A stretch of 60,858 nucleotides of DNA from positions 1-60,858 of the IMG/VR virus record IMGVR_UViG_3300021963_000139; one strand, written 5' to 3'. How positions within the stretch are numbered: position 1 is the stretch's first letter; each line of letters opens with the position of its first letter. The position numbers and the translations under genes are program-made. The notes beneath the pieces were generated by a model. The model had not been told where the DNA came from, ran no database searches, and worked only from the letters and a program-made list of their open reading frames with translations. The DNA is from a virus. This document shows positions 1 through 60,858 of the stretch, piece by piece.

Positions 1-65
1 GTAGGTACAGGCTCAGTAGGTACAAGTTCAGTAGGAACGGGTTCAGTAGGAACGGGTTCAGTAGG
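1..65. repeat. Direct terminal repeat, left copy
   Basis: Bases 1-65 are identical to 60794-60858. The overlap keeps the giant reading frame in phase across the joint: codon first bases fall at positions 2 mod 3 on the left and 0 mod 3 on the right, which agree for a 60,793-bp circle. It most likely marks a circular assembly of a circularly permuted or circular genome. Because it lies inside a tandem repeat, the true repeat copy number across the joint is uncertain. Confidence 0.85.
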
Positions 66-3000
66 AACGGGTTCAGTAGGAACGGGTTCAGTAGGAACGG
101 GTTCAGTAGGAACGGGTTCAGTAGGAACGGGTTCAGTAGGAACGGGTTCAGTAGGAACGGGTTCGGTAGGAACGGGTTCGGTAGGCGTAACAGGAGATGG
201 CGTTTCTTTGACAATATTTATGAGATCTTCTTGCGTAATTGGATTGCCCATATCATCGACAACAATTGTCGGCGTCACGGTTGAGATAGGGGCTGTTGGA
301 GTAATTGTCGGTGCAAACGTAGGTGTTTGAACAGCTGGCGCCTCCCCAGTAACCATTCTGAACAATTCTTGTTGAGTAACAATTTTTCCGTCTTGATCAA
401 CCAAGTCTGTTGGGTCTACGGTTTCTGTAGCTACTCGTAAGTTTCCCTGATCATCTACTAGCCCTGCTATTCTTAATACATCTTCTAATGAATCATCCGC
501 AAATAACAATTCAGTTTGTTGATTTGAACCAAACAAACTTCTTAACTGCTGTACGTCAAAGGGTGAAGGCGTAACCGTTGGGGGCTGACCTCCAACAGGG
601 GGTTCAGGTGGCGGCGTTATATCTACTGTGGGAACTTCGGTCGGAACTGTGGGAACTTCGGTCGGAACTGTAGGAGTTTCTGTAGGAGCAGTCAGTGGTT
701 CAACGGGAGCAACTGTAGGAGTCGTCGTGGGAACAGCAAGTGTAGGAGCTGTCGTGGGGACGGCGGTAGGCGTTGCGCTTCGTGTAATGCTTTGCGTTGA
801 TACGTATAGCGTTTCTCCGGGGGTTAAATCCGAAAACTTTAAACCGCTACTTGTAAATGCCGTTGCGGGCGTAAACGTATATCCTGATCCATCGGTATTT
901 TTGGTCAATACGCCGCGATCATTTGAAACAATGACTTCTCCGCGCTGGGCGGCATCAGAAGCAAACGCAACTGTTTTGGCTGCGTTAACAGCCATTTGAT
1001 TGACGGGGTCATCTTGATTGTCTTGAATGCTTTTTGCAGCATCTGGGTCTTGAAACGTTAATAACTGCAAAACATTGTTGTAAAATTTGTCTGCATTAAT
1101 AACCGTTTCGCCTGCGTCGCCTTCAAACGTAAACGTGCCTTCGTTAGTATCAACGCTTTTTAAATCAAGATTTAGTTTTGGCCCTATGTCTAATACAAAA
1201 GGAACCAAACTTAATGTGGGTTCAGTTCTTGTTGGAACGCCTGTTGCTGTATTGAACTCTAGTTCAACAGGATTGCCGCTTTTATTTGTAATGGTTTGCC
1301 CTGCTAAAGTAAGGGCTTGTTTCCCTAACGATATACCGCCGCCCGTAATTGCAATCTGACCCGTTGTTGTTACAGCAGCATCTCTTGCAATACTGAGCAA
1401 CTCATCCGTTGTGTATTTTTTCCCTGGTTGTAAACCTATATCAGGGATTGTGTCTACATATGCCTGGGCAATTGCCGTTGCTATCTCTGACGGAACATTT
1501 GCCGCCACATTTTTAGCGTAGCCTTCTAAAAATGTTTGTGGTGTAAGTTGCTTTGAAAATAAATCTTTTAAGAACTTTGTGGTGCCAGGAACGCCAATAA
1601 GTTCTCCAGTTCCTTCTAGGCTCGACATGATTGCGGCTCGTGTCGCCGACATGGTTTTTGACGTTTCAGCGTCAAACCCTCTGGCTTCAAACTCTCTAAT
1701 GCCTTTTACATACTCTGATGAAAATAAAGGCAGCGCCGCGCTTGAGAAAGCAACACCTAACGCGACGGGGATGCCTGCTCCTGATAGTGCAGCCAACCCC
1801 ATAGCTGCCGTCGAAGGAATTGATGCGACCGCTGACGCAAAAGCATTTCTAAAATCTTTGTCTCCCTGCTTTGACAATGACTTTTGATACTCAATTAATT
1901 CGTCTACCGTTTCAAATTTTCTCCCTGTTGCAAGTTCCGCTGCGCCTAATACCTGCAATGCAATCTCTGCGCCGCCAATTTGAATGCCTGCCGTTGTTCC
2001 GCTACCCCATCTTTTGGCAACATTCATTAATCCATCAACAGTAGGACTAAAGTCAATGCCTAATCGTTTTTCGCGAATTTGATTAGCTTCATCAATAACT
2101 AATTTTTCTTGTTCTGGGTTTCCTTTTGCCAAGGCAAACTTGGACTCAATATCTTGCATTTCTTCCTCTGAAAAACCAGAGGACATCATCCAAGTACTAA
2201 GATTATTAGGATCATCTTTTGCGTAATAATTGTAATTTGCTTCATCTAACGGACGCGTTAAATATTTTTCTCCTTCTAATTGTGTATAAAGCCCACTTGG
2301 GTAAATATATGTTTGAGCATTTGCCGGAGAGGTTCCTGCTGGAGCAGTAACTGTTATTGATGGCGTCGGCGTTTGTGCAGGCGTTTGTGCAGGCGCCTGT
2401 GTAGGCGTCTGTGTAGGCGTTGCAACTGGAGTTTGATCTACGTAAGAAAAATCGCTTTCGTCTGTGGGAGTACCAATTTCTATTGGTGGCAAGTCCGCTG
2501 GTGGTTTTGCTACTGGCGTAACAGGCGATATTGTTGGAACAGTAGGTAAAGGAGCCGTGGGCGGTGCTATAGGAGTTGTAGGCTCTACCGGTGGCGCTGT
2601 TGGGGTTACAGGAGCCAGAGGTGGCGCTGTAGGCACCGCGGGGGCCGTTGGCGTCACTACAGGCGTAGGCTCTGCTATAGGAGTAACTGTTGGTGTTGTA
2701 GCAGGCGGAGAAACATTAATATCAGGCCAAGTCGTTGGGTCAGACGGGTCAAAACTTGGATCAAGATCTGGATCAGGCCAAGTTGTTGCATCATATGGAT
2801 CAAAAATTGGCTTGTTTGGATCAAATGATTTTGGCGCTATTGGAGTTAATAAATCACCGCCGAGGTCCGCATCAATTGCGCCAACCCCTTCACTATTAAT
2901 AAGTAACTGTCCAACTTGCGATTTAGTAACAAGATAGTTTGCGCCAGCTTGTAAATTTTGCGCCGCGTTTGCAATCGCATTTAAGTTCCCTGATTCAAGA

Positions 3001-5366
3001 GCTTTAACTAATTGCAAGGCTGCGCCGGCGGTTTTTAACTCTGCACTATTTGCCGCGCGGCCCGCATCCATTAAAGCCCCTGCGATATCGCCTTTGACAG
3101 CTTTGTCAACCGCTGATGCCGCATTTAATGCGTCCGATACCGTCAAACCATTGCCAAGGTCTACAGTACCAATGCCTTGACCTAATGAACTACCAGCGAT
3201 TGTTGCCAACGCACCAAGCAAATTGCCTTCTTTGACGGCATTAGCTGCATTGGCCCCCGCCTGTATGGCTGAAGCAGTCGCAGTATCAATTAACCCTGTG
3301 TAACCGCCAAAACCTGCTAAACTTGCGGCGATGGCAAAGGGATTTTCGCTTGCAAGAGCATTGATTGAATTAACGGCTAACGTCAGCGGCGTTAATGCAC
3401 CTCCTGTTAAGAAGTTAGCAATATTGAGAACTGGCCCTGCTTTAGCCACGGCTTTTATGAACGGGTCAGTTGAATCGTCTCCTAAAGTCTGAACCTTAAG
3501 TTTTCCTTCAGCGTCAGCAGTTACGTTCCCGTAGGTCGTTCCTGGACCTTGACCCCATGTTCCAAGCGACCCATCCCAGTCTATTGTTTGGCCTGTCGCT
3601 TTATCAAAAAACTCGGTTTTTGTTGACGCTGGAACGTACTCTTCAAAATCTCCGCCTTCGCCACCAGAAACCGTTCTGTAATATCCTTCAACCGAAACTT
3701 GTCTTGCGCCAAGTTGACTTAAGTCAGTTATCCCTGTTCTTTCTACGATTCTTTGACCAATCTGGTTTAGCATTCCTTGCGTACCAAACCCAGGGCCGCT
3801 ACTTTTGCCCGCCTGTGTTGTCCATGCCCCGCCTGTAGAATTTGGATCTAAAATTGACGCGGCTTGTTTTGCAACTTTTTCTGCTGCAACAAATTGTTTT
3901 TCTATGCCATTTGGTGTAACAACAAACTTTGTGCCATAACCATCATCAAATAACACAGGATTGACTTCTGCCCCTGTGGTTTTATTTATTAGGGCAGTTC
4001 TCGTTTGCGGAGAATTAACAAAATCCTCCAGCCCTTCGCTAATGTTTTCCAACGATAGCTGATCTAGGCTTGTAATTCCTTGTTCTTTCAATTGTTTGTC
4101 TAAAAGCTGCTTTAATAGCTGCGTCTCATCTTTGCCGCTAATTGGGTCAATATACTTGTCTACCCCTGAAAGGAGACTGGATGTTGGCGGCGGCGTAGTC
4201 GGCTTTACTACATCATTGCCGGTTGCTCCTGTGATTGTGTCTGCGCCTACCAGAGGAGACCCAGCAGTCGTCAATAACTCTTGCAGCGTGCGTATCGGCG
4301 TTCCCTGGCCAATAAGAAGCGCATCTACAGATGTCACCTGACCATCTTTATTAACGTCATAAAGCATGTTTGCAGGAATTATTCCTGCCGCCATTTGATG
4401 CGCTATCTCCATGTCCGATAACGTCGGCGCAATAGGTGGCGTCGTCGGCGTTGTGCCTACCAATGTTGGGTCGTAAGGCAGATCGCCCCATTCATTTCGC
4501 GTTTCGTCTACTGTTGGACTTGTTGTAGGCCCTCTCACATCTATATCGACTGGCGACGGACTTCCACCGGTTGAACCTCCACTTACTGTGTCGTTTCCTG
4601 TTCCACCGAAAACAGAGGTTTGCCCTGCCGCTTGCTCCCTAGCTAACCGTTCTGCTGCCTCAATGGCCTCACGTTGAAGTCTTGCTTGTTCGGCAAAATA
4701 CCCAGGGTATGGTTCTCCTGGCAATAGCGTTGTAATCCCCGCAGTAGGTGGTGCAGTAGGTGGTGCAGTAGGTGGTGCAGTAGGTGGTGCAGTAGGTGTT
4801 ACATCCGATTGATTTAAGTAAGTAAAAAATGCATCAACATTTTCTTGTGTTGATATTGGCCTTCCTGCGATACTTTCAATCCTGGCGGCGAGTGCCGCAC
4901 CTTGTTCTGGCGTTAGAAAATCACCAGTTGCTGCGTCTATCTGTGCTTGACGGATTGCAATTAGCTGGGCATTCGTTAATGGACTAGGAGTAGCGACTGT
5001 GGGCGTGTTTGGGACTAGCGAAGCTATACCAACAGAAGGCGGTTCAATTGGTGTGACAGCTATAGGCGAGGCGATTGGCGTTACAAATACAGGAGAAGCG
5101 GTTGGCATCGGGGGTGGAACATAATCTGACTCTACATACGTTGGCGCTGGTGGCGGGTCAGAAGCTGGCGCTGGTGGCGGGTCAGAAGCTGGCGCTGGTG
5201 GCGGGTCAGAAGCTGGCGCTGTATAACTAAAACTCGTCCCTGGATCAGAGTAATATACGTCATACAAGTCAACGCCATACTTAGAAGCAGCCGCAATAAC
5301 ATCATCTAGGCTCGCCCCGCCAGCAAGCATTTCCATGCCTATATTAAGGATTGCTTCTCTATCCAT
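1..5366 (-). CDS. Giant Pro/Thr-rich virion protein, N-terminal ~1,790 residues (continues at 60858-59584)
   Basis: Starts at ATG 5366, 3 bases after the previous stop, and stays open to base 1. Joined through the 65-bp end overlap it ends at 59584, about 2,191 aa. Approximate layout: Ala/Pro octapeptide repeats (~50-75), APPT repeats (~192-208), an RTX-like motif GGTGNDTVSGG (~252), a dockerin/EF-hand-like loop DVNKDGQVTSVDAL (~335), a second RTX-like stretch (~372), Ala-rich helical sequence (~650-820), Pro-rich linkers, hydrophobic helices (~1180-1210), then PTEPV repeats. It lies among nozzle and internal virion genes, so I infer a virion protein (internal/ejected protein or fibre). I do not recognise the family. 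The RTX and dockerin-like motifs suggest calcium binding; that is inference. Confidence 0.85.
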   Translation of the reverse strand, partial: MDREAILNIGMEMLAGGASLDDVIAAASKYGVDLYDVYYSDPGTSFSYTAPASDPPPAPASDPPPAPASDPPPAPTYVESDYVPPPMPTASPVFVTPIASPIAVTPIEPPSVGIASLVPNTPTVATPSPLTNAQLIAIRQAQIDAATGDFLTPEQGAALAARIESIAGRPISTQENVDAFFTYLNQSDVTPTAPPTAPPTAPPTAPPTAGITTLLPGEPYPGYFAEQARLQREAIEAAERLAREQAAGQTSVFGGTGNDTVSGGSTGGSPSPVDIDVRGPTTSPTVDETRNEWGDLPYDPTLVGTTPTTPPIAPTLSDMEIAHQMAAGIIPANMLYDVNKDGQVTSVDALLIGQGTPIRTLQELLTTAGSPLVGADTITGATGNDVVKPTTPPPTSSLLSGVDKYIDPISGKDETQLLKQLLDKQLKEQGITSLDQLSLENISEGLEDFVNSPQTRTALINKTTGAEVNPVLFDDGYGTKFVVTPNGIEKQFVAAEKVAKQAASILDPNSTGGAWTTQAGKSSGPGFGTQGMLNQIGQRIVERTGITDLSQLGARQVSVEGYYRTVSGGEGGDFEEYVPASTKTEFFDKATGQTIDWDGSLGTWGQGPGTTYGNVTADAEGKLKVQTLGDDSTDPFIKAVAKAGPVLNIANFLTGGALTPLTLAVNSINALASENPFAIAASLAGFGGYTGLIDTATASAIQAGANAANAVKEGNLLGALATIAGSSLGQGIGTVDLGNGLTVSDALNAASAVDKAVKGDIAGALMDAGRAANSAELKTAGAALQLVKALESGNLNAIANAAQNLQAGANYLVTKSQVGQLLINSEGVGAIDADLGGDLLTPIAPKSFDPNKPIFDPYDATTWPDPDLDPSFDPSDPTTWPDINVSPPATTPTVTPIAEPTPVVTPTAPAVPTAPPLAPVTPTAPPVEPTTPIAPPTAPLPTVPTISPVTPVAKPPADLPPIEIGTPTDESDFSYVDQTPVATPTQTPTQAPAQTPAQTPTPSITVTAPAGTSPANAQTYIYPSGLYTQLEGEKYLTRPLDEANYNYYAKDDPNNLSTWMMSSGFSEEEMQDIESKFALAKGNPEQEKLVIDEANQIREKRLGIDFSPTVDGLMNVAKRWGSGTTAGIQIGGAEIALQVLGAAELATGRKFETVDELIEYQKSLSKQGDKDFRNAFASAVASIPSTAAMGLAALSGAGIPVALGVAFSSAALPLFSSEYVKGIREFEARGFDAETSKTMSATRAAIMSSLEGTGELIGVPGTTKFLKDLFSKQLTPQTFLEGYAKNVAANVPSEIATAIAQAYVDTIPDIGLQPGKKYTTDELLSIARDAAVTTTGQIAITGGGISLGKQALTLAGQTITNKSGNPVELEFNTATGVPTRTEPTLSLVPFVLDIGPKLNLDLKSVDTNEGTFTFEGDAGETVINADKFYNNVLQLLTFQDPDAAKSIQDNQDDPVNQMAVNAAKTVAFASDAAQRGEVIVSNDRGVLTKNTDGSGYTFTPATAFTSSGLKFSDLTPGETLYVSTQSITRSATPTAVPTTAPTLAVPTTTPTVAPVEPLTAPTETPTVPTEVPTVPTEVPTVDITPPPEPPVGGQPPTVTPSPFDVQQLRSLFGSNQQTELLFADDSLEDVLRIAGLVDDQGNLRVATETVDPTDLVDQDGKIVTQQELFRMVTGEAPAVQTPTFAPTITPTAPISTVTPTIVVDDMGNPITQEDLINIVKETPSPVTPTEPVPTEPVPTEPVPTEPVPTEPVPTEPVPTEPVPTEPVPTEPVPTEPVPTELVPTEPVP
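31..180 (-). repeat. 15-bp tandem repeat encoding PTEPV
   Basis: Ten head-to-tail copies of GTAGGAACGGGTTCA, the last two ending in G. On the minus strand each unit encodes Pro-Thr-Glu-Pro-Val in the giant protein. Near-identical units favour copy-number change by slippage and may be collapsed in a short-read assembly. Confidence 0.95.
4744..4791 (-). repeat. 12-bp tandem repeat encoding APPT
   Basis: Four exact copies of GTAGGTGGTGCA, read on the minus strand as Ala-Pro-Pro-Thr inside the giant protein. Confidence 0.93.
5143..5214 (-). repeat. 24-bp tandem repeat encoding an Ala/Pro octapeptide
   Basis: Three near-exact copies of a 24-bp unit beginning GGCGCTGGTGGCGGGTCA. On the minus strand they encode ASDPPPAP repeats near the N-terminus of the giant protein. 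Confidence 0.92.
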
Positions 5367-26996: not shown

Positions 26997-27398
26997 CTAT
27001 GCTCGAGAAATGCCGCGCGGATCTTGAACCACCGCCTCGACTGAATCATCGTTAATGATTCGAAACTCTTTGCCGTGGATTTTGATCCTTGTCCCCGTGT
27101 TTGGACGAACTAAAACAAAGTCTCCTACTTTGCATGACGGCCCCGACGGAAATCGCGTTTTATCTGCATAAGCATCAGGCCCAACTTTAACAACAAATAA
27201 CACGGGCGAAAGCACCTCTTCGTAGTAAACAGTAGACCCAGCCTTTACAAGGCCGCTGTCATATTCCTCATCCACTTCTGGAAGTACGCACAACAAATGA
27301 TAGGTAGAAGGATCAGGCAACTGCTTGGCCTTTTCCTCTGCCGACTCAGGCAACGTCGTTGCCGTTTCTCCGTCTTGGGAGATTAATAACTCATTCAT
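26997..27398 (-). CDS. GroES-like co-chaperonin (cpn10 fold)
   Basis: 133 aa. The core (residues ~33-125) follows the 10-kDa chaperonin pattern: HLLCVLPEVDEEYDSGLVK, VLFVVKVGPDAY, GPSCKVGDFVLVRPNTG, IIHDDSVEAVV-like end. A mobile-loop-like segment (SGLVKAGSTVYYEEV) replaces the usual GIVL loop. Probably assists the host GroEL in folding the capsid protein encoded just downstream. The N-terminal 30 residues are an acidic extension. Confidence 0.85.
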   Translation of the reverse strand: MNELLISQDGETATTLPESAEEKAKQLPDPSTYHLLCVLPEVDEEYDSGLVKAGSTVYYEEVLSPVLFVVKVGPDAYADKTRFPSGPSCKVGDFVLVRPNTGTRIKIHGKEFRIINDDSVEAVVQDPRGISRA

Positions 27399-27582
27399 CT
27401 TCTGTTTCCTTTAAACGACTCGCAAGGTCTTGTACTTCTACTTGTGCTGAACGCAGACCCCGAATAACGCCGCACAGCTCTCGATACTCGGCATAATCTT
27501 TTGCCGAGCCGTTGCTCACTGAATCTTTTAGATCCTCAATCCTGTTGTTTACTTTAGTCATTAACAACTCAAATACATCCAT
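27391..27582 (-). CDS. Small helical protein
   Basis: 63 aa, fully helical and acidic (VFELLMTKVNNRIEDLKDSV, YAEYRELCGVIRGLRSAQVE). Overlaps the upstream glycosyltransferase-like gene by 14 bases and the co-chaperonin gene by 8. Similar short proteins sit near portal genes in aquatic phages. Function unknown. Confidence 0.7.
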   Translation of the reverse strand: MDVFELLMTKVNNRIEDLKDSVSNGSAKDYAEYRELCGVIRGLRSAQVEVQDLASRLKETEDE

Positions 27583-28417
27583 TTTCTTTCCTCATGTTTA
27601 CCCATGACTTTACAGCGCGATAAAAATCGTTTTCTAAAAATTGATTGAAGTTAACATCGTCAACCGACTTGATTATTTTTTTATTAAAACGCGAGTCGCA
27701 TGAATAGTGACTTATGTAATGCCATGATTTATATTCATTAAACCCAGGGACGTATACGACATCTTCATGCCGCATGACAACCCGATGGTTAGCACATGCC
27801 ACTTGCAAAGCATACATCCCCGCCCACCATTTAAAATCTTTTGAAGATGTGCTTTGAAATATCTGCTTATGTGCTTGCAGCCACGTAATAAGTATTTTTT
27901 TAAATGTTTTTGCTTTGGCAATAATTGGAACGAAACCGCCATTGTACGCGCCATGATGTTTTGTTAATAGCGGTTCTATTAAATGTTTATGCTCTGACAA
28001 ACTTTTTAAATGCCATGATTCATATACGTTTGATACAACAACTTCGTCTTTGATGTTTAAGTGCGGATGTTTTTTTAGATGACACATATCGCAATCTAAT
28101 AATTCAATTATTTCGTCATCATCAAATTGATCAATAGTCTGTATTAACGCCGATTGAATATTTAACGGCACAATCAATCTGTCGTAAATTTGCTCAATAT
28201 TTAAAAAGTCAAAACAACTTTTCACAATCACATGCGGCAAATTAAGCCGCCACGGTAAAGCCTTATGACTAGTTTCATCAGGGGCGTTTTTATCTACAAC
28301 CAGTGCCACAGCCTTTCGCCATGCGCCAACACCGTATACTTTTTGATGCTGGTGCCAAAACAAATCCAGTTGTAACCCAAAGTTACCGGCACATACTGCA
28401 ATAGGTATGCTTACCAT
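27569..28417 (-). CDS. DxD glycosyltransferase-like protein, coupled to the prolyl hydroxylase gene
   Basis: 282 aa from ATG 28417, which shares its A with the hydroxylase stop (TGATG). The N-terminus is a GT-A-like start (VSIPIAVCAGNFGLQLDLFW); residues ~98-112 read QFDDDEIIELLDCDMCH, where D108-C-D110 is the expected DxD for a metal-bound nucleotide sugar. Later come YNGGFVPIIAKAK and WWAGMYALQVACA. The layout recalls eukaryotic hydroxyproline O-glycosyltransferases (LDxDM motif), a comparison from memory. Strict coupling to a prolyl hydroxylase makes a joint hydroxylation-glycosylation role plausible. AT-rich compared with neighbours, which may indicate transfer. Confidence 0.62.
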   Translation of the reverse strand: MVSIPIAVCAGNFGLQLDLFWHQHQKVYGVGAWRKAVALVVDKNAPDETSHKALPWRLNLPHVIVKSCFDFLNIEQIYDRLIVPLNIQSALIQTIDQFDDDEIIELLDCDMCHLKKHPHLNIKDEVVVSNVYESWHLKSLSEHKHLIEPLLTKHHGAYNGGFVPIIAKAKTFKKILITWLQAHKQIFQSTSSKDFKWWAGMYALQVACANHRVVMRHEDVVYVPGFNEYKSWHYISHYSCDSRFNKKIIKSVDDVNFNQFLENDFYRAVKSWVNMRKENGCI

Positions 28418-29553
28418 CAAAAAGGCCTTTCTCTAAGCCATTTAGTGGCTATCCATTTCACACCTTTTTTTACAGGAACACCTGCGTGCAATGACTCATG
28501 CTCCATCTTGGGATATTTGAATAGCACTGCGTTTCCTTCCACTGCTTCAAATTCAAGATGCATTTCGGGGAATGTCGTCCCGCCTCCAAGTTCTGGGGTA
28601 TTCAAATAAATTAAAAACGTTGCGACTCTTTGTCCTGATTTTTCTAGCGACTGCGTTGTCGGAGGTTTTGATGCATCAAAATAATCGTGATGAGGCTTAT
28701 ACTCTTGCCCCTCTTCGTACCGCAAAATTTGCAATCCTTCTCCGTTTTCTACAGGAATTCCTGTAAGTTGCGCGATTCTTGTTTCAAGTCTTGATATTAA
28801 TTCTGTGCTTCCGCGTTGCAAAAATGCGCCGTAACTTGTTCTGTTTGGATGGTCTGTAGGATGACCTGTTTCGTGATGAACCACAGTAGATTTTTTAAGA
28901 TTTGGTTGCGCCGCACTTATTAATTCTTGACACTCTTGTTTGGTTAAAAAATTACCAAACAATGTTGTCTCAATAGGCTTTTGCTTTTTGAACAATACAG
29001 TACTTGTTTCTTTAATCTCTGGAAGCGACCAGTGAAAAAACATATACACAGCGCGCTGTTTTTCGCCACACAGTAGCTCATCTCTCCAATGAGGAAACTT
29101 TCGGCCTTCCATTACTGCGCCGTACCCAACACCAAAATGCGCTTCTAAAAACTTTTCTTTAAAATGTGCGTTTTGCGCTTTTAAATCCCAGGTGTCGCCA
29201 TGATAAGTTTTGGCGCTTATATTAAGAGGCCAATCTAAATTGTTTTTATCTTCAAGACAAACACTTAAGGTTAAATCTAACCCTTTTCGATCTGTGTGCA
29301 AATTAAGCACGCTATGTCGGTTATAAACTCTTGTGTACGTATTTGCAAATACCGCCGTAGGATATTTTTCCTTTATTAATTTTGTTGCGCGATCTACATA
29401 AGCAATTGACCCTGGTAAATTAAAATATCCGTAACTATTTTTATAGTATTCTGGGCTGTTGTTTTCGTCGTGGTGATCAACTGAAAAAAACTCTTCTACT
29501 AAAGCCTTGCATTCATCGGGACTAAAAATTTTTAAATTGCTTGTCCAAATCAC
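28417..29553 (-). CDS. Tandem 2OG-Fe(II) oxygenase, prolyl-4-hydroxylase-like
   Basis: 378 aa from GTG 29553 (GTGA overlap with portal). The C-terminal domain (~195-378) has the full P4H signature: H288/D290 (KPHHDYF), TFLIYLNTPELGGGTTFPE, then H356 (SLHAG) and K366 (GVKWIATKW) for 2-oxoglutarate. The N-terminal domain (~1-180) also looks like a double-stranded beta helix, with H86/D88 (LHTDRKGLDLTLSV) and H155 (FPHWRDEL). Two potentially active domains in one chain are unusual. Predicted to hydroxylate Pro residues in proteins; candidate substrates are the Pro-repeat virion proteins. Confidence 0.85.
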   Translation of the reverse strand: MIWTSNLKIFSPDECKALVEEFFSVDHHDENNSPEYYKNSYGYFNLPGSIAYVDRATKLIKEKYPTAVFANTYTRVYNRHSVLNLHTDRKGLDLTLSVCLEDKNNLDWPLNISAKTYHGDTWDLKAQNAHFKEKFLEAHFGVGYGAVMEGRKFPHWRDELLCGEKQRAVYMFFHWSLPEIKETSTVLFKKQKPIETTLFGNFLTKQECQELISAAQPNLKKSTVVHHETGHPTDHPNRTSYGAFLQRGSTELISRLETRIAQLTGIPVENGEGLQILRYEEGQEYKPHHDYFDASKPPTTQSLEKSGQRVATFLIYLNTPELGGGTTFPEMHLEFEAVEGNAVLFKYPKMEHESLHAGVPVKKGVKWIATKWLRERPF

Positions 29554-31868
29554 GTTTTCACCATTTTTGTCAAAACATCGGCTTTAAGTTTTTTGTCTGT
29601 CTCAAGTGATTTTGCCGCCAGTCGTTGTTGTTCTTTTTGAGCTTCTATTGCAATCCTTTCTTGTTCAACTTTTAATCTTGCTTGGGCTAAAGCAATGTCG
29701 GCTTGGTCTTTCATCGCTTTTCTCTTAACTTCTTCTGCTTTAATCTGTAGTTCAGCTTGTTGCATTTGAACAATTGGATCTTGTGCTTGTTGCATGGCTT
29801 GTTGTTGCTGGGCTTGCGCCATGTTTAGCTGCAAGAGCTGTGCCGCGGCTTGTGCCGTGAGCCTTGATAACTCTACTTCTACGTCTTCAGGAAGTTTTTC
29901 GTTTGGCGGCGGTAGAGGAACCCCTACTTGCTCTTCAATTTTCTTTCGGTAAAGAAAAGACAGGTGTTCTGCGACATGAGCCATGACCGCCGCAGCCATT
30001 TGTTGCGCCATAGGGTTTTGTCCTATGGTTTTTTGGATCATGGGATCTTGCAAAAAAGTCATGTGTGTAGCGATATGTGCATCGTGGTCTTGATAGATAA
30101 ATGCTTTAGTGGGTTCCATCCTTAGAAACGCCATGTTTTCAGAAATAGGGTCTTTGGGATGCTGATCTTCTGGTAAAGGAACTAACCTATCCGCGTTTTT
30201 CACCCCTAAAACTTCAATCATTTGCCGATGCAGTTGAGGCAAATCATAAATTTGCGGGGCTTGGGCCGCTAATTGAATGACCGCTTGGTACTGCATAATC
30301 CTTTGCGCCATCGTTGCAGCGTTAGGGTCACTTACCGGGATGATTTCTACGTGTTCGTAGTCCTCTTGTTTGGCTTTTCTATCTCCTCCCTCGGGGATAT
30401 AGCTGTAGTCTTCAGGGCTACAGTCCTTAATAATTTCTTTTAACAGCTTAAATTCCTGCTTCATTGCCGCATGAACACGAGCTTGAACCGCACTCATGGT
30501 TTTTAGCTGTCTTTCTAATAGCGCCAAAGTCGTTCCTACCGGCGCTTGAGACGACATATCGCTGACTTTCATGTCAGCAATTGATCCTAGTCTTCGTCCT
30601 TCTTCGCTGATCTTTTCTAACAGCATGGCTAATACTTGCGACGGCTCCTTATAAGGAAGCGTCATGATGTTATCTTTAATCGCGCCACTCGGAACGTCTA
30701 CGTCTCTGAATTCTCCTGGCGCTATAGGGGTGTCATCGCCTTTTACCCTAAGACCTCGAGACTTAAGGCCTCCCGGTAAATTCGATAAAGTACCTGCATC
30801 GACCAATTGTCTGATTAACATGGTCCCTGCGCGGGCGTAACCACCTATTAAATGAATATACCCAAACCCATAAGCACCAAAGCCAGGGACATAGTCATAC
30901 TGAACGAGATGTTGTCTTTTCCTATAAAGATAATCACCCTCTCGCCAGTTCCTATAAATGGACAAAATCTTGTTCGTTCCTTTATCAATACTTACAATAT
31001 AAGGAACGGCTACGTCGTCTTCCTTTTCAAACCCAGGTAGATTTAAATCCACCTGTATTTCACAAATTAAATATCTGTCATCGTCGTTAATCGAAAACCC
31101 CGTCTCTTCGGCTTTCTTTTCTTCGACGTCGTTTGATATTTTTATGGGGTCTCCTAAATCAACATCCCTGTAAAACCCTTTAACCTGAAGCCGGTGGATA
31201 TCATTTTTAGTCTTACGCATCATGTGTGTGACGCGTTCCGCGGTTCTCGCCCCCGAGGCTCCGTAGGGAATAATTACGTCCTCCGCAGGAATAAATACCG
31301 CGGTCTCTCTTCCTAAATTAGGATCGTAGTAAACCTTCTTAAAGGCAGCGCCGCTTAGGCCTAAATTAAATAACATCCTCTCATGTTCTGGTCTGTACTC
31401 AGGAATCGTCTCGGTTAAACGATAATTCATATCGTCTCGGACTCTCTCGGCAGCGTCTTCTTTTTCTTTGGTTATTTGACCAATAATTTCTGTTTTAACT
31501 GGACCCTGAGCAGGGAAAGTCTCGATAATCATTTCTGACTGAAACCTTACCGCCGCTTCTGTTAATAAGGTCGAAAATACACCGCAGGCTCCGTTCCACG
31601 GCTCTGTTCTTTCTTCATACTTCATGCCTAAAACTTCTAAGCCTTTGACGTACATATCGACCCAGTCTTTTCTAGAGCCGATATCCGCATCCACTTCGCC
31701 CATTAAATCTGACGCAAGCGTTCCTAACTCCGACTCCGACATATACTCGGCTAAATTTGAATCAAACTCATCGTCTGTTTCTTTATCAGGCTCTAAGACA
31801 ATCTCTAACCCATCTATACCAATTGACACTTCTTCGGGGTCAACAATTTCAATCTCAAGTTCACTCAT
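29550..31868 (-). CDS. Portal protein
   Basis: 772 aa. Forms the dodecameric DNA gate of the capsid. Recognisable portal motifs: WVDMYVKGLEVLGMKYEERTEPW, MIIETFPAQGPVKTEIIGQ, NYRLTETIPEYRPEHERMLF, GLSGAAFKKVYYDPNLGRET, then LVQYDYVPGFGAYGFGYIHL. The C-terminal ~150 residues are Gln/Ala-rich coiled coil (barrel). The long length and tail fit podovirus-type portals. Immediately follows terminase. Confidence 0.92.
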   Translation of the reverse strand: MSELEIEIVDPEEVSIGIDGLEIVLEPDKETDDEFDSNLAEYMSESELGTLASDLMGEVDADIGSRKDWVDMYVKGLEVLGMKYEERTEPWNGACGVFSTLLTEAAVRFQSEMIIETFPAQGPVKTEIIGQITKEKEDAAERVRDDMNYRLTETIPEYRPEHERMLFNLGLSGAAFKKVYYDPNLGRETAVFIPAEDVIIPYGASGARTAERVTHMMRKTKNDIHRLQVKGFYRDVDLGDPIKISNDVEEKKAEETGFSINDDDRYLICEIQVDLNLPGFEKEDDVAVPYIVSIDKGTNKILSIYRNWREGDYLYRKRQHLVQYDYVPGFGAYGFGYIHLIGGYARAGTMLIRQLVDAGTLSNLPGGLKSRGLRVKGDDTPIAPGEFRDVDVPSGAIKDNIMTLPYKEPSQVLAMLLEKISEEGRRLGSIADMKVSDMSSQAPVGTTLALLERQLKTMSAVQARVHAAMKQEFKLLKEIIKDCSPEDYSYIPEGGDRKAKQEDYEHVEIIPVSDPNAATMAQRIMQYQAVIQLAAQAPQIYDLPQLHRQMIEVLGVKNADRLVPLPEDQHPKDPISENMAFLRMEPTKAFIYQDHDAHIATHMTFLQDPMIQKTIGQNPMAQQMAAAVMAHVAEHLSFLYRKKIEEQVGVPLPPPNEKLPEDVEVELSRLTAQAAAQLLQLNMAQAQQQQAMQQAQDPIVQMQQAELQIKAEEVKRKAMKDQADIALAQARLKVEQERIAIEAQKEQQRLAAKSLETDKKLKADVLTKMVKT

Positions 31869-49784: not shown

Positions 49785-50034
49785 CAAACTAACCGCTAAG
49801 GAACGTGAACATATACACAGGGTAAAACTCTTACCCTGTAGTGTATGTGACGCACCGGGACCATCTGACGCACACCACGTTAAGCAGCATCAACAATACA
49901 CCGTGGTGGCTTTATGTAAAGACTGCCATCAAGGTTCTATCCTTGGATGGCATGGTCAAAAACGGGCGTGGTCTATCCGTAAGATGGACGAACTCGACGC
50001 ACTTGCCGTGACGATTGAACGATTACTTGGATGA
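49777..50034 (+). CDS. HNH-like nuclease, Ref/DUF968-type
   Basis: 85 aa from TTG 49777, where AAAGG precedes it and it overlaps the previous stop. Zinc and HNH-like residues: PCSVCDAPGPSDAHHVKQHQ, ALCKDCHQG, GWHGQKRAW. This matches small recombination-linked nucleases such as P1 Ref (needs RecA). Last plus-strand gene; its end overlaps the convergent giant gene by 12 bases. Confidence 0.72.
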   Translation: MNNKLTAKEREHIHRVKLLPCSVCDAPGPSDAHHVKQHQQYTVVALCKDCHQGSILGWHGQKRAWSIRKMDELDALAVTIERLLG

Positions 50035-53000
50035 CTTCCTGACTTCTTCCGCCTGTTGAGCCAAGTCAGCAATAATCAATTTCATTCGATCAATCTCTTC
50101 ACGCTTATCCGCTCCGCTCATGGTGGTATCCGCCATGATGACGCGGATTTGTTTTCTAATCTCAGACATGTTCTTTGATGTCTTGTCATAGAACTTAGCC
50201 AAGGCGATCTTGTCTCCCTTCTCAGAGATGATCTCCTCGACCTTAGCAGCATCACCGACCTCAGCGTAATGCCGCATATCTGCAAAGGCTTGATTGATCT
50301 CTTTGGCATTCTCATAAAAGGATGTCACGTACTTAGCCTGATTAGCCGGTAGATCTCTTGCCAAACCTAAGCTTGCACGATCAATCCACTTTGCATCAGG
50401 ATATTCCCCTTCCCTAAACGGCATGACCGCATAAGTTGATATGGTTGAAGCCGCTCCACCAAGCCATCCAAAGTATCCCTTGATGGCGTAGTCAACCTGA
50501 ACAGGCGAAAGCTCCGCCGCTTTAGGTAAAACTGTCGAACTTAAAATTGACGAAACGCCGCCAAGAGCGATGGCAAGCGGACTTGTTTGATCGGTCATAC
50601 GCTCTTGTTTTGATAGACGCTCAAGACCAGCCGTTTCAATAGGCGCGCCTGTGAATGTACTCTTGTTTGCGTAAAGATCTAACAAGGGTTTAAACATTTG
50701 CGGCGTTGGGTTCATGGCAAACGTATCAAAAATTGCTCGACTAATAGCAGCTTTGAACTGTTTACCCTCTGCTTCTTGGTCTACCATTTGCTCTAAGATT
50801 CTTTCGCTTAAAGTTCCTAACGCGCCTATTTCAAATGGCTTTGGAATCCGATATGCAACGTCTATGCCTGGAAGCTTAAACCACCAAAAATTATCTCTGT
50901 CCCATTCGTCACGCTTCTGGAATTCCTCGTCATCTTTAAAAGCTAAGTAAAGAGCCATAGATGCAAGCATCGTTGCCATTGCTACGTACCCAAACGCTTC
51001 TGCCTTTTGCTTGTCCGAACCTGTTATTTCTTTGCCAGTTGAAACGTTATACAAAACTCTTGAGGTCGGAATAACTCCGTCTCTTCCTAGTTTATAAAGA
51101 CCTTGAATGCGAGCATTTAAAAATGGAACAATTTGTGTAAGGTACCTAAAAGCAGGCCAAGACCCTTGTTTAGAAAAGTCGAGCAAGTCTCTTGCGTAGT
51201 AACTTGCTTCTAAATGACTCATTTTTTTGTCGCGTAAGTTCTTATATAAAGTAAGACGGTTAGCCGATTCAGACGCATTGCCCCAGTCTTGATATTTATC
51301 AAGAAGAAATCGCAGACCGTTTTTAATCCGCTCTCCACTATCAAGGATAGTGTCACGCCCTACACCTTTATCAATTAACCTCTTAATTAGTTTCGATTGG
51401 TCACCTTCATAAGCAGTGCCAAAATTAAAAATAGCACCACCTGCTAACGCCCCAATGTATGTTTCTTTTTTCTCATTGAAAATGGAAACACCATTGAGAA
51501 CGTTTGTGAATGGATTTGAACCAAGTCCACCCCCACTCAGCGCCATCGATTGCCATGAGTCTCGAATTAAGTTGTTTACTTTAAATACTGGAGAAACCGT
51601 CACCCCAAGTTGCAACAGATTCTTGAAGCCTCGCATCACATCAACAAACATATTCTTAGGACCAAGATATCCAATCGCAGAAATTGACTCTAGCAACAAT
51701 GGATCATTGACCTTAAAGTATTTGGCTTGCCCATCAATCATAACTTTTACAGAACCGGTCTTCTCCTTGGTCGGCTCGACCACAGGTGTATCACCTAGTA
51801 CTACACTTTGGGCGGCTTGTAATGTTGATACCGCGGCTTGGTTCTTCATCGCTGCCGACAGGATGTGATTCCAATTTCGTAAAGTGTTCTCTACCAGATC
51901 ACCGAATGGACGCTCACCACCTTTGAGCTGCTTTGAGAAGTACTGACTCGTAAGACCTGATGCTATAGAAGGAGCGTCGATATCCTTATCTTCCATTTCT
52001 TTATAAAAGGGTACGTAATAAATATCTTTTGAAAACTTTTCGAATCCATTTTTATCTATCAATCCGGTATCTAAAGCTATCTGCAAGACAGAACGGTTTA
52101 TGCTATTCATGTCTTGCAACACATCGTTGTAGACTTTTATTCTTTGCTGTCCGTTTAACTGTCCTTTTGAAAGCTCATCTTTTTGGTTGAGCAAATCATC
52201 AGGAACAGACGGGGTTTTTCCTTCTTTACGTAGCTGCTCTTCACGGTTGAGAGCGACCCAGATCATAAAATTATCAACCTCAGTTCCTACAGGCTCCAGT
52301 GCTTTGATAAAACCCTTTGTGTTTTGTTTGATGTTTAACGCGCCGTCGTCGTTAATGACCTCCCCATATAGCATCAAGCCTTCTAACGCGCCGTCAACCG
52401 AGCGTGAAAGCGTGGCTTGCATATGAGCTTTATCACTGTAGTCTTTAATCGATCTAAACTGATCGGCCATACCCTGAGCAATACGCTGCCAGAAGCGATC
52501 CTTTAGACCCTCGATCTTATCGATGATGGTTTTATTCTCAGGAGCGAAGGTAGCCTGTAACTGCTGTGCGATTTGCTCAGAGATCTGTGGCGCAAGTCTG
52601 AGTGGCTCGCGTTTCTGCATGGCTTGTTGAGCTGTTTTCTTTATGCGTTGTGCCGCGCTTGGCTCGCGATTTTCTTCTGAAACAACTAGGTCGCTTGGTA
52701 ATTTGCCAAACGTAGGGCGAGATGTTTGCGACAATTGTTCTACTAAATTTAAAATTTCACTAAGAGCCGTTTTGTTTTTAATGCCCAACAAATTTGCAAC
52801 AAGTTCAACAAACTTAGACCAAACGCTTTGCGATTGGCTGTAAGGAATTTGCATCAATTCATATTGAAACTCAGGGTAAGCCAACGCTTCAGTTACAAAT
52901 TCTAATCCTACTTTTTGAACATCGGTGCGTGTATCAAATGCGTACCACTCAGAGTTTGTATTTGGATCAATTAACTTGCCACGTTTTTTTAATTCCTTTT

Positions 53001-56000
53001 TTGCGTACTCTCGTAATTTTTTAATTTCTTGAACAAATTTACGTGCTTGTGGCGACGGCGCAAGCTGTTGTCTTGCCACCAATGCATGTACTATTTCATG
53101 AATTGTGGTTTTTTCGCTTCCCGCAAAATTAACGCTCATCGTAATTTGATCATATGCGGGGCTGTACTGCCCTTTGCCCCCAATTCTTGCGGGACGCATA
53201 ATTTTTACTTTGTTGCGAAGCGGCTCTGCCAATTCAGCGACTCGTCTATAAACCGGGTTTTTGTGTGTTTTAAAAAAATCAATTAACCCGCCAAAATCCT
53301 TCGCATAATGTAATTTTTCAACGATTGGATTGTTGTAATTGACAGGCAACACATCTTTAAATTGTTCAAGCGTTAAAATTTTCCCTGGCTCAGTAGGCTC
53401 CGTAGGTTCTGTTGGTTCAACGGTTTTTTGTTCAGATTTTTGAGGCGTTTGCTGACCTTCTTTTCTAAGAGCTTTTTCTATAAAACCTCTAGAAATTTGA
53501 TTTTCTTTGTATGCTTGTAGAAATGCTTTTATTTTTTCTTGTTGACCTTTTTCTTCTTGCGTTATTGGTTCAGAACGAACCATTTCATTAAGCAGACGCA
53601 AATAGTAATCAACCGCATCAACACTAGGATTATTAAGAAATTGTATTGCTGGTAATTCAATGCCACTTGTAGGCTCAACTTGACCGGCTTGAATTGTCCA
53701 AATTGTATAACCTAAAGGAGGTTTAGATGTTGGTATGTCATATGGCTTGGCGGTAGGCTTTGCAACATTAGTGACAGGACGGCCAAATACATCTCGAACA
53801 CCTTGAAGCGTAGGACCGGCAATAGGCTGTTGAGATATCTTGGCTTCAGGAGAACCAAGGAATGTCAGGGGAGGAAGCTGTAGTACTTGACGCTCAGTCT
53901 GTAACGCACGTTGGACATCCTCTCGTGGGATACGCCCTGCTTCCCAATCCTTTACAAACCTTTGTGATGCCGGCGTGTTGGTCTGTCTAGCGATCTTGAC
54001 GTAAGCCTCGACCGGATCAATCACAACAGGTTTCTCGGGCGTACCAAATGCCGTAGCCTGTTGTTCAGTAGATAACTTAAATGGTAAGTCAAAAGACTTG
54101 ATTGCAAACTTACCTTGAACCGTTGGATGAGGAACTATACCAAGGCTATTAGGATCTCCGCCCTCGATTTGAAGCATGTTTTTCAGTACACCAAGCCGTG
54201 CGTTAGCTTGCTGTTCTGTTAGCGGTCTTGGATCAACAAGCTTAGGCACCGGAGACTTTCCGATCTTTGGCTTTTCAACTTGGGTGATGCCAGCTCGTTG
54301 CTGTTCTGCCGTAGGAAGTCCTGCCTCCTGGCGGCGACGATCAATCTCTGCCTGTCTTGCTGCTATGGCTTCAGGGCTAGACGCGGTTGGAAGTTGTTGT
54401 GCTAATGGACCTCGCTCTTGTACTTCTGGTCGAGTCTCTGGGCCTACCCTTGGTTGCGGTTTGGCTTGTTTCTGAAGTTCAATCAAACGATTCTTCAGAT
54501 ACTCTCGCTGTTCTGTCGTAAGAGGGTTTGGCGTGTTAGGCAAATTGGCAAGTTGTAATTGCCTAATGATGTCTAGCATTTCTTCGCTAGCCGCTCTAGC
54601 TTCGCCAGGAATAGCCTGTACTTCTCTTACACGTTTACGTTCAGCGTCTCTTGCAATCTTTTCCCGAGCGGCAATGTCTTCTTGTATCTGCTGCGCCTCA
54701 GCCGTAGCAGGCTTTTCAAACTCAGGCATCCTCTCTACTTTTGTTTCGCCAGGACGCAAACCAAACTTACTTGTTGCCTGTTGAAACTCAGGCATATCTT
54801 CGACGCGGGTTTCTCCGGGCTTTAGTAATGAGGCAACGCCACGCTCAAACTCAGGCAACTTAGCCCTTGCCTCTCCTGGTCGAAGCGGTCTACGTTCTTC
54901 TTCTTGCGCGGCAGCTTCTTGTGCCGAAAGCAAACCCTCAATACCAACTCCTGGTTGTCTTCCAACACCGGTCAATGCTTCAATGCGTTGTTGTGTAGCG
55001 GTCGGCTCTACGGGTGGAAGCTGTTCCTCTGGAGTAACGGGAGGCGCCGGTTCTTGGGGAGTAGGCCTTCTAGCCAAACCCGCTATACCACCAAGTCCAA
55101 CGCCACCAATAGCGGCCATACCTGCGGTTTCGCCCAAGCCTTCAGTCAAGGATTGCTCAGGCTTGACCTCGCGCATCGCAAGGTTCTGCGTGAATCGGCC
55201 ACCAACTTCCTCACCGACTTCACTAACACCTTCACCTACCGCACCACGACCAACACGACCGGCTCTGCCTGCGACGCTCGGTACGCCTGCGAATGTTTCT
55301 TCTAAAGCCCTCGCACCAGGAAGTCGTTGAGCCAATACAGAAATGATTGCACCTGATGCGCCTGCCGCCCGGGCAAGATTCAACGCACCTTGCGCCGCCT
55401 CTGTATCGGTTGCGCCTTTAGACTTAAGTTCGTTGTAGATGTTCTCGTAAGCACCAGCGCCAACATCTGCGCCTTGCTGAACACCCGCGGCTCCAATCGC
55501 ACCACGAACACCGGCTTGTGCTGCCGCGGCTTCACCCGCGCCTCGAGCGACTGTCGCACCCTTGGCGATCTTTGCCGCCCCGAAGGGGACTAGCAACTGA
55601 GGAGCCTGCTCTGCAAGAAACGTTAATAACAAACCTGGGTCTTTTACCGTCTCAGAGAACGCAGACTTAAACGCACCAAACTGCCCTTCCTTAGCGGTGG
55701 CTTCTTCAATCGCTTTACGTCTTGCTTCTTCTCTAGCTTTTAGCCCTGCCGACTTCAAAGACTCGGCATATTCTTCGATATCTTTACCAACGCCTAACGC
55801 TCCGGTACGTCTCATATCTCCCGTAGCAAGGCCATATAACTGACCAGGGAGTTGGACGAGCGAACCGATTCCACCTACAACCCCAGCGCCGATATCCTGT
55901 AACGCCTCGCCGTAGGTACGCTCTTTGGATGGTGGCTGTTGCTTTGCAAGGTAAGCAAGGATCTTTGCTTTAGCTGCGGCAGGATCAGTTTCAGCAAGAT

Positions 56001-58745: not shown

Positions 58746-59582
58746 TTACCTCGGCAAATAACGATCTGTTTTGGTATCAGCCGCAATGTCTTTGGCTTTG
58801 CGTCTGGCGTTTTTAATCCTATCCATCATGGCGTAAAGCTTCCTTGCGCCAGCTTCTGTAGAGCCATTGCCTAATTCAGAAACAATACGGGCAGGAATAA
58901 CGAATTCGCCGTCAGCCAATCGAGCAGGCTGTTTATCAGTAATGGTTGCGGGAATATCATCGCTCACTCCATCTCCAGGTCCACGAAGTAACTGACCGCC
59001 GTCTGAATAAGAGCCAAGATGTCCATTACGTAAGGACATAATCCCACCGCTTGCGCCTGTTACGGTGTCGTTACCACCCCCACCCGAAACCGTGTCGTTA
59101 CCGGCGCCGCCTGTTGCAGTGCTAACAGGTGTGTACACCATAGGGCTAAAGTAAGTAACACCACCAGACCCTGGCCTGCGAGGAATGGTTGCTAATTGTC
59201 CCGATTGTCCTGCCAACGGATTTGCCATCGTAGTCGGAATAGCATTCATGGTTCTTGTGGCTGTGTATGTGGGAATTTTTCCTTGATATCCTGCATATCC
59301 TCCGCCGCCGCTTGAGCCAAACATTTTATTGGCAAGCGCGCCAACTCCTAAAAGACCAGCCATCTTCGTCGCATTAGAACCAAACAACGCTTTTAACGCC
59401 GCACCCCAATCACCGGTGCCAGTAAGAATTTCCGTCAAATCGGGATTATTACCATCAGTTATCGCTAAGTCTCCAGTAAAAATACTTGGATCTAGCCATT
59501 CTGTTTCTTCACTAGATGCATTTGCCGCAGCATTTGGATCTGCCATCGACGGGTCGTTAAATAAACCAAGATCGACTGCCAT
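58746..59582 (-). CDS. Virion protein with RTX-like repeats
   Basis: 278 aa. Residues ~160-180 hold GGAGNDTVSGGGGNDTVTGA, two RTX-type GGxGxD repeats that bind Ca2+ in haemolysins. The C-terminal part GPGDGVSDDIPATI...PARLADGEFVIPARIVSELG...ARKLYAMMDRIKNARR is a hallmark of a podovirus tail/core protein family. It lies between the giant protein and the smaller core proteins. Confidence 0.8.
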   Translation of the reverse strand: MAVDLGLFNDPSMADPNAAANASSEETEWLDPSIFTGDLAITDGNNPDLTEILTGTGDWGAALKALFGSNATKMAGLLGVGALANKMFGSSGGGGYAGYQGKIPTYTATRTMNAIPTTMANPLAGQSGQLATIPRRPGSGGVTYFSPMVYTPVSTATGGAGNDTVSGGGGNDTVTGASGGIMSLRNGHLGSYSDGGQLLRGPGDGVSDDIPATITDKQPARLADGEFVIPARIVSELGNGSTEAGARKLYAMMDRIKNARRKAKDIAADTKTDRYLPR

Positions 59583-59583
59583 A

Positions 59584-60858
59584 TTACTGACCTCTCAAAA
59601 TCTGAATAAGTTCATCAAAAGACACGGTCTCGTCGTCTACCGCCCGTAGGATTTGATCTACGGGATTTTCCTCTCTTTTCTCTGTTCGTTCAATCTGTTC
59701 GGCTAACTGTTCCGGCTCCACGCCTGCTTGCGTCACGCTTAAAGGTTTGTATTCTTCCTGCTCGAGCGTTCCTTCTTTGGTGAGTTTTTGTTTCTTTGAG
59801 CCAAACTCTTTGCCGTAATAAAACACATTTGCTAACTGAGGCATACCAAACGAAGCAGCAATAGCCTGCGCCATCGGCCATGAAATTGGTTCAGATGTCG
59901 GCTTAACAGGCACTGTCGGTTTGGTCGGTGTAATTGGTGTAGCGGTTGGTGACGTAGTAGGAACTACAGGAGGAGCGGTAGGAACTGTAGGTGGCTCAGT
60001 AGGAACCGTTGGGGGTTCGGTAGGAACTGTAGGTGGTTCGGTCGGAACTGTAGGAACCGTTGGCGGTTCGGTCGGAACTGTAGGAACGGCAGTGGGGGTA
60101 ACCGTAGGAGCAACCGTAGGAGCAACCGTAGGCGTGACCGTAGGAGCAACCGTAGGAGCAACCGTAGGCGTGACCGTAGGAGCAACCGTAGGAGCAACCG
60201 TAGGAGCAACCGTAGGCGTGACCGAAGGCGTTTCTGTTGGCGTGACCGTAGGCGTGACCGTAGGAGTGATTGTTGGCGTTTCGGTGGGCGTAACTGTAGT
60301 AGTGGCCGTAGGGGTTTCGGTGGGAGTTTGAGTTGGAGTAACCGTAGGAGTCTCTGTAGGGGTCTCTGTAGGAGTCTCTGTAGGAGTCTCTGTTGGAGTA
60401 ACCGTAGGGGTCTCTGTAGGGGTAACCGTAAGGGTCTCTGTCGGAGTCTCTGTAGGGGTAACCGCGGGAATTTCCGTAGGCGTAGCCGTGGGAGTGGCCG
60501 TAGGCGTTTCTGTAGGAGTCTCAGGTACAAAAACAGTGGGAGTTACAGGAGTCTCTACCTCAACACTTGTCGGAGTTATTGTAGGAGTTATTGGCGCCTC
60601 CGTTGGGACAACCGGAGCCTCGGTAGGAACGGTGGGGGTCTCAGTAGGAACGGTCGGAGCCTCAGTAGGAACGGTCGGAGCCTCGGTAGGAACGGTGGGG
60701 GTTTCGGTAGGAACGGTGGGGGTTTCGGTAGGAACGGTGGGGGTTTCGGTAGGTACAAGTTCAGTAGGTACAGGCTCAGTAGGTACAAGTTCAGTAGGTA
60801 CAGGCTCAGTAGGTACAAGTTCAGTAGGAACGGGTTCAGTAGGAACGGGTTCAGTAGG
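59584..60858 (-). CDS. Giant Pro/Thr-rich virion protein, C-terminal ~400 residues
   Basis: Continues from base 1. Upstream part consists of Thr-Pro/Val-Pro/Ala-Pro repeats ([22 protein letters not shown] types); the final ~110 residues (59584-59913) form a folded end, [20 protein letters not shown], then a charged helix ending [14 protein letters not shown] at 59913 could be mistaken for an independent start, but the frame upstream is open and repeat-coded, so the long form is preferred. Confidence 0.85.
59920..60858 (-). repeat. Degenerate Pro/Thr repeat array of the giant gene
   Basis: Nested 12-18 bp units. Examples: GTAGGAGCAACC/GTAGGCGTGACC around 60105-60230 (AP-TV and TP-TV), GTCTCTGTAGGG units around 60345-60470, and GTAGGAACGGTGGGGGT around 60620-60750. 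They encode alternating Thr-Pro, Val-Pro and Ala-Pro dipeptides. Confidence 0.9.
60794..60858. repeat. Direct terminal repeat, right copy
   Basis: Identical to bases 1-65. Removing one copy gives a 60,793-bp circle. Confidence 0.85.

Follow-up and report, generated by a model that had tools for sequence, protein, structure and literature searches.

Why does a tailed phage carry a prolyl hydroxylase gene and a glycosyltransferase gene, in overlapping reading frames, among its head genes, and what might the two enzymes modify? The question is raised by one IMG/VR virus record, IMGVR_UViG_3300021963_000139, which was analysed over its whole length of 60,858 nucleotides (the window). A sequence-only reading of this DNA had suggested that the phage hydroxylates and glycosylates its own proline-repeat virion protein.

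Organization of the locus

The window phage is tailed and probably of the podovirus type; by its portal protein, the closest isolates are HTVC023P-type pelagiphages, Caulobacter phage RW and Planktothrix phage Pag-Yong1, at 33-42% identity. The genes of interest lie on the minus strand in the order portal, prolyl 4-hydroxylase (P4H), transferase, small ORF and GroES-like gene, and the interval from the portal to the GroES-like gene is referred to below as the slot.

29550..31868, minus strand: portal protein (phrog_1216, E 6.6e-20), upstream border of the slot
28417..29553, minus strand: tandem 2OG-Fe(II) oxygenase/prolyl 4-hydroxylase, 378 aa, GTG start (PF13640, E 3.3e-16, C-terminal domain)
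29029..29553, minus strand: N-terminal second 2OG-like domain, residues about 1-175 (phrog_2954, E 3.8e-14, residues 25-175)
28423..28965, minus strand: C-terminal catalytic P4H domain, residues 197-377 (H288xD290, H356, K366)
27569..28417, minus strand: predicted HPAT-like (GT95/GT96-type) GT-A glycosyltransferase, 282 aa (PF23452, E 6.4e-8)
28088..28096, minus strand: DCD (DxD) motif of the transferase, residues 108-110
27391..27582, minus strand: small conserved ORF, downstream border of the slot
26997..27398, minus strand: GroES/Cpn10-like gene (PF00166, E 2.7e-5, above cut-off), adjoining the slot

The genes of this head operon are closely spaced. The GTG start of the P4H gene overlaps the portal stop by 4 bases, the P4H stop has one base in common with the transferase ATG (TGATG, at 28417), and the ATG of the small ORF (27582) falls within the 3' end of the transferase gene. 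The shared base had been noticed in the sequence-only reading, which spoke of genes fused by overlap; the reading frames do overlap, but they do not make up one protein. Both the P4H and the transferase are under purifying selection (pN 0.14-0.21 with pS saturated; dN/dS about 0.04-0.1 in close pairs). A search of the window for RNA genes returned none.

Several other features of the window deserve mention. The GroES/Cpn10-like gene lies within the head operon and is found beside the slot in every relative examined. The 2003-aa product of 50023-56034 (minus strand) contains the protease-like motif HEIVHAL (HExxH) and matches uncharacterised phage families (phrog_18222, E 5.5e-177); it is probably a virion protein that is ejected. 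The ORF at 58746-59582 (minus strand) has a match to RTX calcium-binding nonapeptide repeats that is barely above the Pfam cut-off.

The hydroxylase

The gene had been described as a tandem 2OG-Fe(II) oxygenase with a full P4H signature, and this description is borne out. The best PDB match is Chlamydomonas P4H-1 (2jig/3gze; E 5e-38, residues 197-377), and in this P4H-type domain the HxD...H iron triad (H288xD290/H356) and the 2OG-binding lysine K366 align with the residues of the algal enzyme and are invariant in 12 phage homologues. In our reading of the PDB-match alignment, Y285 falls on the peptide-contacting Tyr140 of the Chlamydomonas protein, which has been crystallised with (Ser-Pro)5 (PMC9676403). 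Sequence comparison thus strongly supports a predicted prolyl 4-hydroxylase, closest to the algal Ser-Pro hydroxylase, as the identity of the C-terminal domain. The N-terminal 2OG-like domain has its own H86-T-D88 and a distal H155, invariant in 12 homologues, and the label 'ferrochelatase' carried by phrog_2954 is probably a misnomer. NCBIfam returned no match for either the P4H or the transferase.

The transferase

The 282-aa protein, earlier called a DxD glycosyltransferase-like product, matches the hydroxyproline O-arabinosyltransferase (HPAT) family PF23452 with 32.8 bits against a curated Pfam cut-off of 23.9 and over most of the domain (profile positions 55-250 of 307). The same family is matched by six of seven close relatives, and above the cut-off in 22 of the 38 records with homologues. 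D108-C-D110 is invariant in 31 homologues. An AlphaFold model built from 31 phage and bacterial homologues (pLDDT 92.7, pTM 0.90) has a GT-A fold. A fold search had been proposed as a check on this protein; with the model as query, the solved structures that came closest were those of retaining GT6-type GT-A enzymes (E about 1e-7, TM about 0.5), whereas a PDB search by sequence gave chance matches only and found no solved HPAT. Membership of the HPAT family with a GT-A fold is strongly supported by profile and model, though both remain predictions, and 'HPAT-like' is used here as a predicted family placement that implies no specificity for arabinose or hydroxyproline (Hyp). Plant HPATs constitute GT95, a family for which a relationship to GT8 and GT96 has been described (PMC4908140; PMC8012813). 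Among 50,697 phage records no match to the transferase was found; these include the isolates nearest by portal, that is, the HTVC023P pelagiphages, Caulobacter phage RW and Pag-Yong1 (about 60-65 kb), which have no HPAT-like match.

An interchangeable slot

In about 96% of the sampled relatives the slot is empty and spans about 160 bases. A transferase or P4H gene occupies it in 3 of the 52 loci identified through the capsid and in 2 of the 73 identified through the portal, two sets that overlap slightly. When filled, it holds P4H plus the HPAT-like gene (the window, G001, G047), P4H alone (G067, G091, L013), a GT2 gene (G039, G083, G088, G094, G104, G108, G124, G130), a GT60 gene (G119, G121, G136) or a 2OG oxygenase plus GT60 (G111, L350), the GT2 and GT60 assignments resting on Pfam for six and on the reading of clear homologues for the remainder. 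The slot is a site of interchangeable modification enzymes, and since both the 2OG-GT60 and the P4H-HPAT-like combinations occur in it, two Hyp-transferase families are paired with hydroxylases at one position. Five loci (L015, L016, L017, L018, L020) have a different gene, of 236 aa, after P4H in the slot; read by eye as GT-B/GT9, it had no useful Pfam match and its AlphaFold model (pLDDT 33.6) was worthless, and the assignment was dropped.

Hydroxylase-transferase pairs in other phages

The pairing of P4H with an HPAT-like gene recurs in unrelated phages; it is no chance feature of a single genome. The order P4H then HPAT-like is kept in the window clade (L002-L008, L012), L029/L031, L032 and L072/G047. 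In L055/L056 a tandem P4H with reversed domain order, directly preceded by a TPTPSP/APTP-repeat gene, lies next to a gene that joins a GT60 domain (PF11397, E 4.6e-37) to an HPAT-like domain; in L041 a single 720-aa ORF combines HPAT-like and 2OG domains; in L036 a tandem P4H lies 3.2 kb from the HPAT-like gene; and in L047 the P4H is on the strand opposite the HPAT-like gene, with an (AP)n-repeat gene alongside. Very dense TP/AP repeats were found in four HPAT-like/P4H phage loci (three of them independent) versus none of 80 capsid-relative loci. Many HPAT-like phage records, most of them fragments, have no detectable P4H, and L013 and G067 have P4H without an HPAT-like gene. The co-occurrence proposed as a check by the sequence-only reading is therefore seen in part: both genes are present in unrelated phages, in some beside Pro-repeat genes, but they do not go one-to-one with the giant protein discussed below.

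Related arrangements were observed elsewhere. An HPAT-like domain is fused to a JmjC/cupin hydroxylase domain in a gammaproteobacterial MAG (L026:7842-9926), and a Planctomycetaceae MAG (L025:3333-5795) encodes an FkbM methyltransferase-GT60-HPAT-like fusion. The GH130-like ORF at L040:8884-9993 (mannooligosaccharide phosphorylase family) lies directly before an HPAT-like gene, and in L050 and L058 a tail-fibre gene of collagen-like type (GPTGxTGPTG) is close to an HPAT-like gene that has no adjacent P4H. GT60 genes also occur outside the slot in G135 (L363:5324-6856) and G137 (L364:3518-5131), records that carry PPT/TPPPT-rich proteins as well.

The giant Thr/Pro-rich protein

The presumed substrate is divided between the two ends of the record.

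1..5366 (ORF 3-5366), minus strand: giant Thr/Pro-rich protein, N-terminal part, running off the left end of the window
59584..60858, minus strand: giant Thr/Pro-rich protein, C-terminal part, the same ORF across the 65-base end overlap

Positions 1-65 and 60794-60858 are identical and lie inside the Pro-repeat gene; either the genome is circular or terminally redundant, or the assembly broke at the repeat. Joining the ends at this overlap keeps the reading frame and gives one protein of 2191 aa, of which 286 residues are Pro and 331 Thr; the number of repeats may have been collapsed by assembly. The ORF is real and, as previously stated, full of Thr-Pro, Val-Pro and Ala-Pro: T, V, A or S precedes 174 of the 286 prolines, and the C-terminal part carries PTETPT/APTV/PTEPV repeats. 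Plant HPATs act on contiguous Hyp in extensin-type blocks. The prolines of the giant are mostly single (230, with 19 double and 6 triple runs, 25 runs in all) and Ser-Pro(3+) blocks of the plant type are lacking, so the plant contiguous-Hyp rule is not matched. The gene is part of the structural module, adjoins DNA-ejection and tail-fibre genes, and is 22 kb from the P4H/transferase pair.

Records with a homologue of the giant C-terminus range from Pro-poor to extremely Pro-rich. Where the giant is Pro-rich and the slot readable, the slot is filled in 10 of 10 records, whereas it is empty in three Pro-poor close relatives (G099, G100, G107). Predictions made beforehand held for G130, whose slot is filled and whose giant is Pro-rich, and for G129, G131, G132 and G133, whose slots are empty and whose giants are not; G136 (filled) also has a Pro-rich giant, the expectation in this case not having been recorded in advance. 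The Pro index was 15-40 for filled slots (n=15) and 7-15 for empty ones (n=15; Mann-Whitney p=2e-6), G083 (filled) tying with the top empty genomes, and these figures are to be read with an index and threshold picked after the first genomes had been seen, several giant genes read in part only and some 'empty' records that are incomplete genomes. With relatedness removed by means of a tree of two neighbouring proteins, the contrasts fall to five phylogenetically independent ones, all in the predicted direction (5/5, p=0.0625).

The enzymes involved are mostly not those of the window. Among the 10 Pro-rich relatives with a readable slot, P4H is present in one (G091) and the HPAT-like gene in none, the others having GT2 or GT60 in the slot, with a 2OG oxygenase in addition in G111. 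A direct co-occurrence of P4H/HPAT-like genes with a Pro-rich giant, considered initially, is weak because most Pro-rich relatives lack P4H, and it was replaced by the association with slot transferases. Better supported is an association of the Thr/Pro-rich giant with a transferase and/or P4H in the slot. It also follows from the missing P4H that hydroxylation is not required for the giants of most of these phages.

Proposed function and alternatives

We propose that the pair forms a phage-encoded module for protein O-glycosylation, housed in the head operon's interchangeable slot, with the phage's own Thr/Pro-rich giant as its most likely substrate, a reading to which we assign a probability of roughly 0.57. 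P4H would convert prolines of the Thr/Pro-rich protein into 4-hydroxyproline, as its family and active site suggest, and the HPAT-like transferase, judging by family and fold, would then use a host nucleotide sugar to glycosylate Hyp. Alternatively, the sugar may be placed on a neighbouring Ser/Thr, as by the related plant SGT1 (GT96), which modifies the neighbouring residue only with Hyp present. The association between slot and giant points to the giant as the target; attachment to Hyp, the sugar and the function are what we infer from enzyme families. The virion would thereby acquire a brush of sugars resembling mucin or extensin, making the protein extended, stiff and protease-resistant; the sequence-only reading had likewise named shielding or a stiffer fibre as possible roles. 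We noticed no sugar-nucleotide gene in the window, which counts against a module of this kind. The earlier suggestion that the phage modifies its own Pro-repeat protein is thereby upheld as far as the enzymes and the slot-giant association go, but is weakened by the Pro-rich relatives, most of which have a transferase without P4H.

The same relatives argue for a different view, that the slot transferases glycosylate Thr/Ser of the giant in the mucin manner, with no Hyp-linked sugar, and that P4H is a separate accessory, modifying the backbone or acting elsewhere. Because such giants are common without P4H and the prolines of the window giant are mostly single, Thr/Ser-linked sugar is a serious rival, and the giant has Thr in abundance. 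GT60 enzymes also start Ser/Thr mucin-type glycosylation in protists (PMC8724618), and the HPAT-related plant SGT1 modifies Ser (PMC4908140). Nevertheless, HPAT-like and GT60 genes are repeatedly found beside or fused to P4H/2OG domains, an arrangement that would be needless for a Thr-only transferase, and we consider this view unlikely. The location of the pair among head genes, remote from the giant gene, together with the HPAT-like genes of L050, L051 and L058 (a collagen-like GPTG fibre gene being nearby in L050 and L058), would fit a target such as a tail fibre, a capsid protein or a host surface protein, for example in superinfection exclusion. However, occupancy of the slot follows the Thr/Pro-rich giant, P4H of L055 has the Pro-repeat gene immediately before it, and no collagen-like run of at least six Gly-X-Y triplets, sought as an alternative target, exists in the window; a target other than the giant appears quite improbable.

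Some phages possess DNA-modification systems consisting of a TET/JBP oxygenase and a base glycosyltransferase. A 2OG oxygenase with a transferase follows the same broad logic, and the L041 fusion weakly matches Tet_JBP (E 5e-4, under the cut-off), but modification of nucleic acid by the pair is very hard to credit: the window oxygenase is of the P4H type, with its best structural match to a peptide hydroxylase and no match to a TET/JBP domain, the transferase is predicted to come from a peptide transferase family, and the pair is located in the head operon, not in a replication module. Protein O-glycosylation of the giant is thus retained as the preferred reading. Its extension to a whole family of tailed phages, which would make Hyp-linked glycoproteins on a giant Thr/Pro-rich structural protein while HPAT-type, GT60, GT2 and hydroxylase genes swap in the slot, is more tentative, and we hold it at somewhat less than an even chance.

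Attachment of sugars to Hyp is considered a eukaryotic trait, and to our knowledge Hyp-linked glycoproteins are so far known from plants, algae and protists. If the proposal is correct, the phages would have a bacterial-virus version of it, in the form of a compact overlapping gene pair and a GT60-hydroxylase pairing, and mucin-like glycoprotein brushes would be predicted on phage particles. The question of the origin of plant HPATs would then be raised, and small soluble enzymes would become available for hydroxyproline glycoprotein production in bacteria.

Comparison with known systems

The literature searched, in which subscription papers and preprints were thinly covered, contained no report of phage Hyp glycosylation, in agreement with the sequence-only reading, which knew of no described phage system of this kind. 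Virion glycosylation by phage transferases has been suggested for structural proteins of mycobacteriophage Maravista, the abstract of that report mentioning neither a prolyl hydroxylase nor a Pro-repeat substrate (PMC11256854). The nearest precedent is the chlorovirus P4H, which is likewise virus-encoded, the PBCV-1 enzyme being present in virions and acting on Pro-containing peptides. PBCV-1 is, unlike the window phage, a eukaryotic virus, and we know of no Hyp transferase adjacent to its P4H. Hyp was sought in PBCV-1 virions and not detected despite the encoded P4H (PMC7019647), which counts against a Hyp module.

Two eukaryotic pathways resemble the phage arrangement. The Skp1 pathway of Dictyostelium and Toxoplasma combines the prolyl hydroxylase PhyA with a GT60-related GlcNAc-transferase, and GT60 includes a family related both to this Skp1 Hyp GlcNAc-transferase and to protist mucin-type transferases (PMC8724618). 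The 2OG-GT60 slots of the sister phages G111 and L350 and the GT60-HPAT fusion of L055 are similar, whereas the window slot has no GT60 and the presumed phage target is a repeat protein, not a single Skp1 proline. Plant and algal Hyp O-glycosylation (P4H with HPAT, GT95, and SGT1, GT96) employs the same two enzyme families by Pfam and PDB comparison, and a Pro-rich repeat protein is the presumed substrate in the phage too. In contrast to the plant and algal system, the phage genes are cytoplasmic, lie in a head operon and have no Golgi anchors, the prolines are mostly single, and the activities are predicted ones. The novelty lies in the setting: the enzyme families are known, but the kind of genome in which they occur is new, as is their arrangement in a modular slot.
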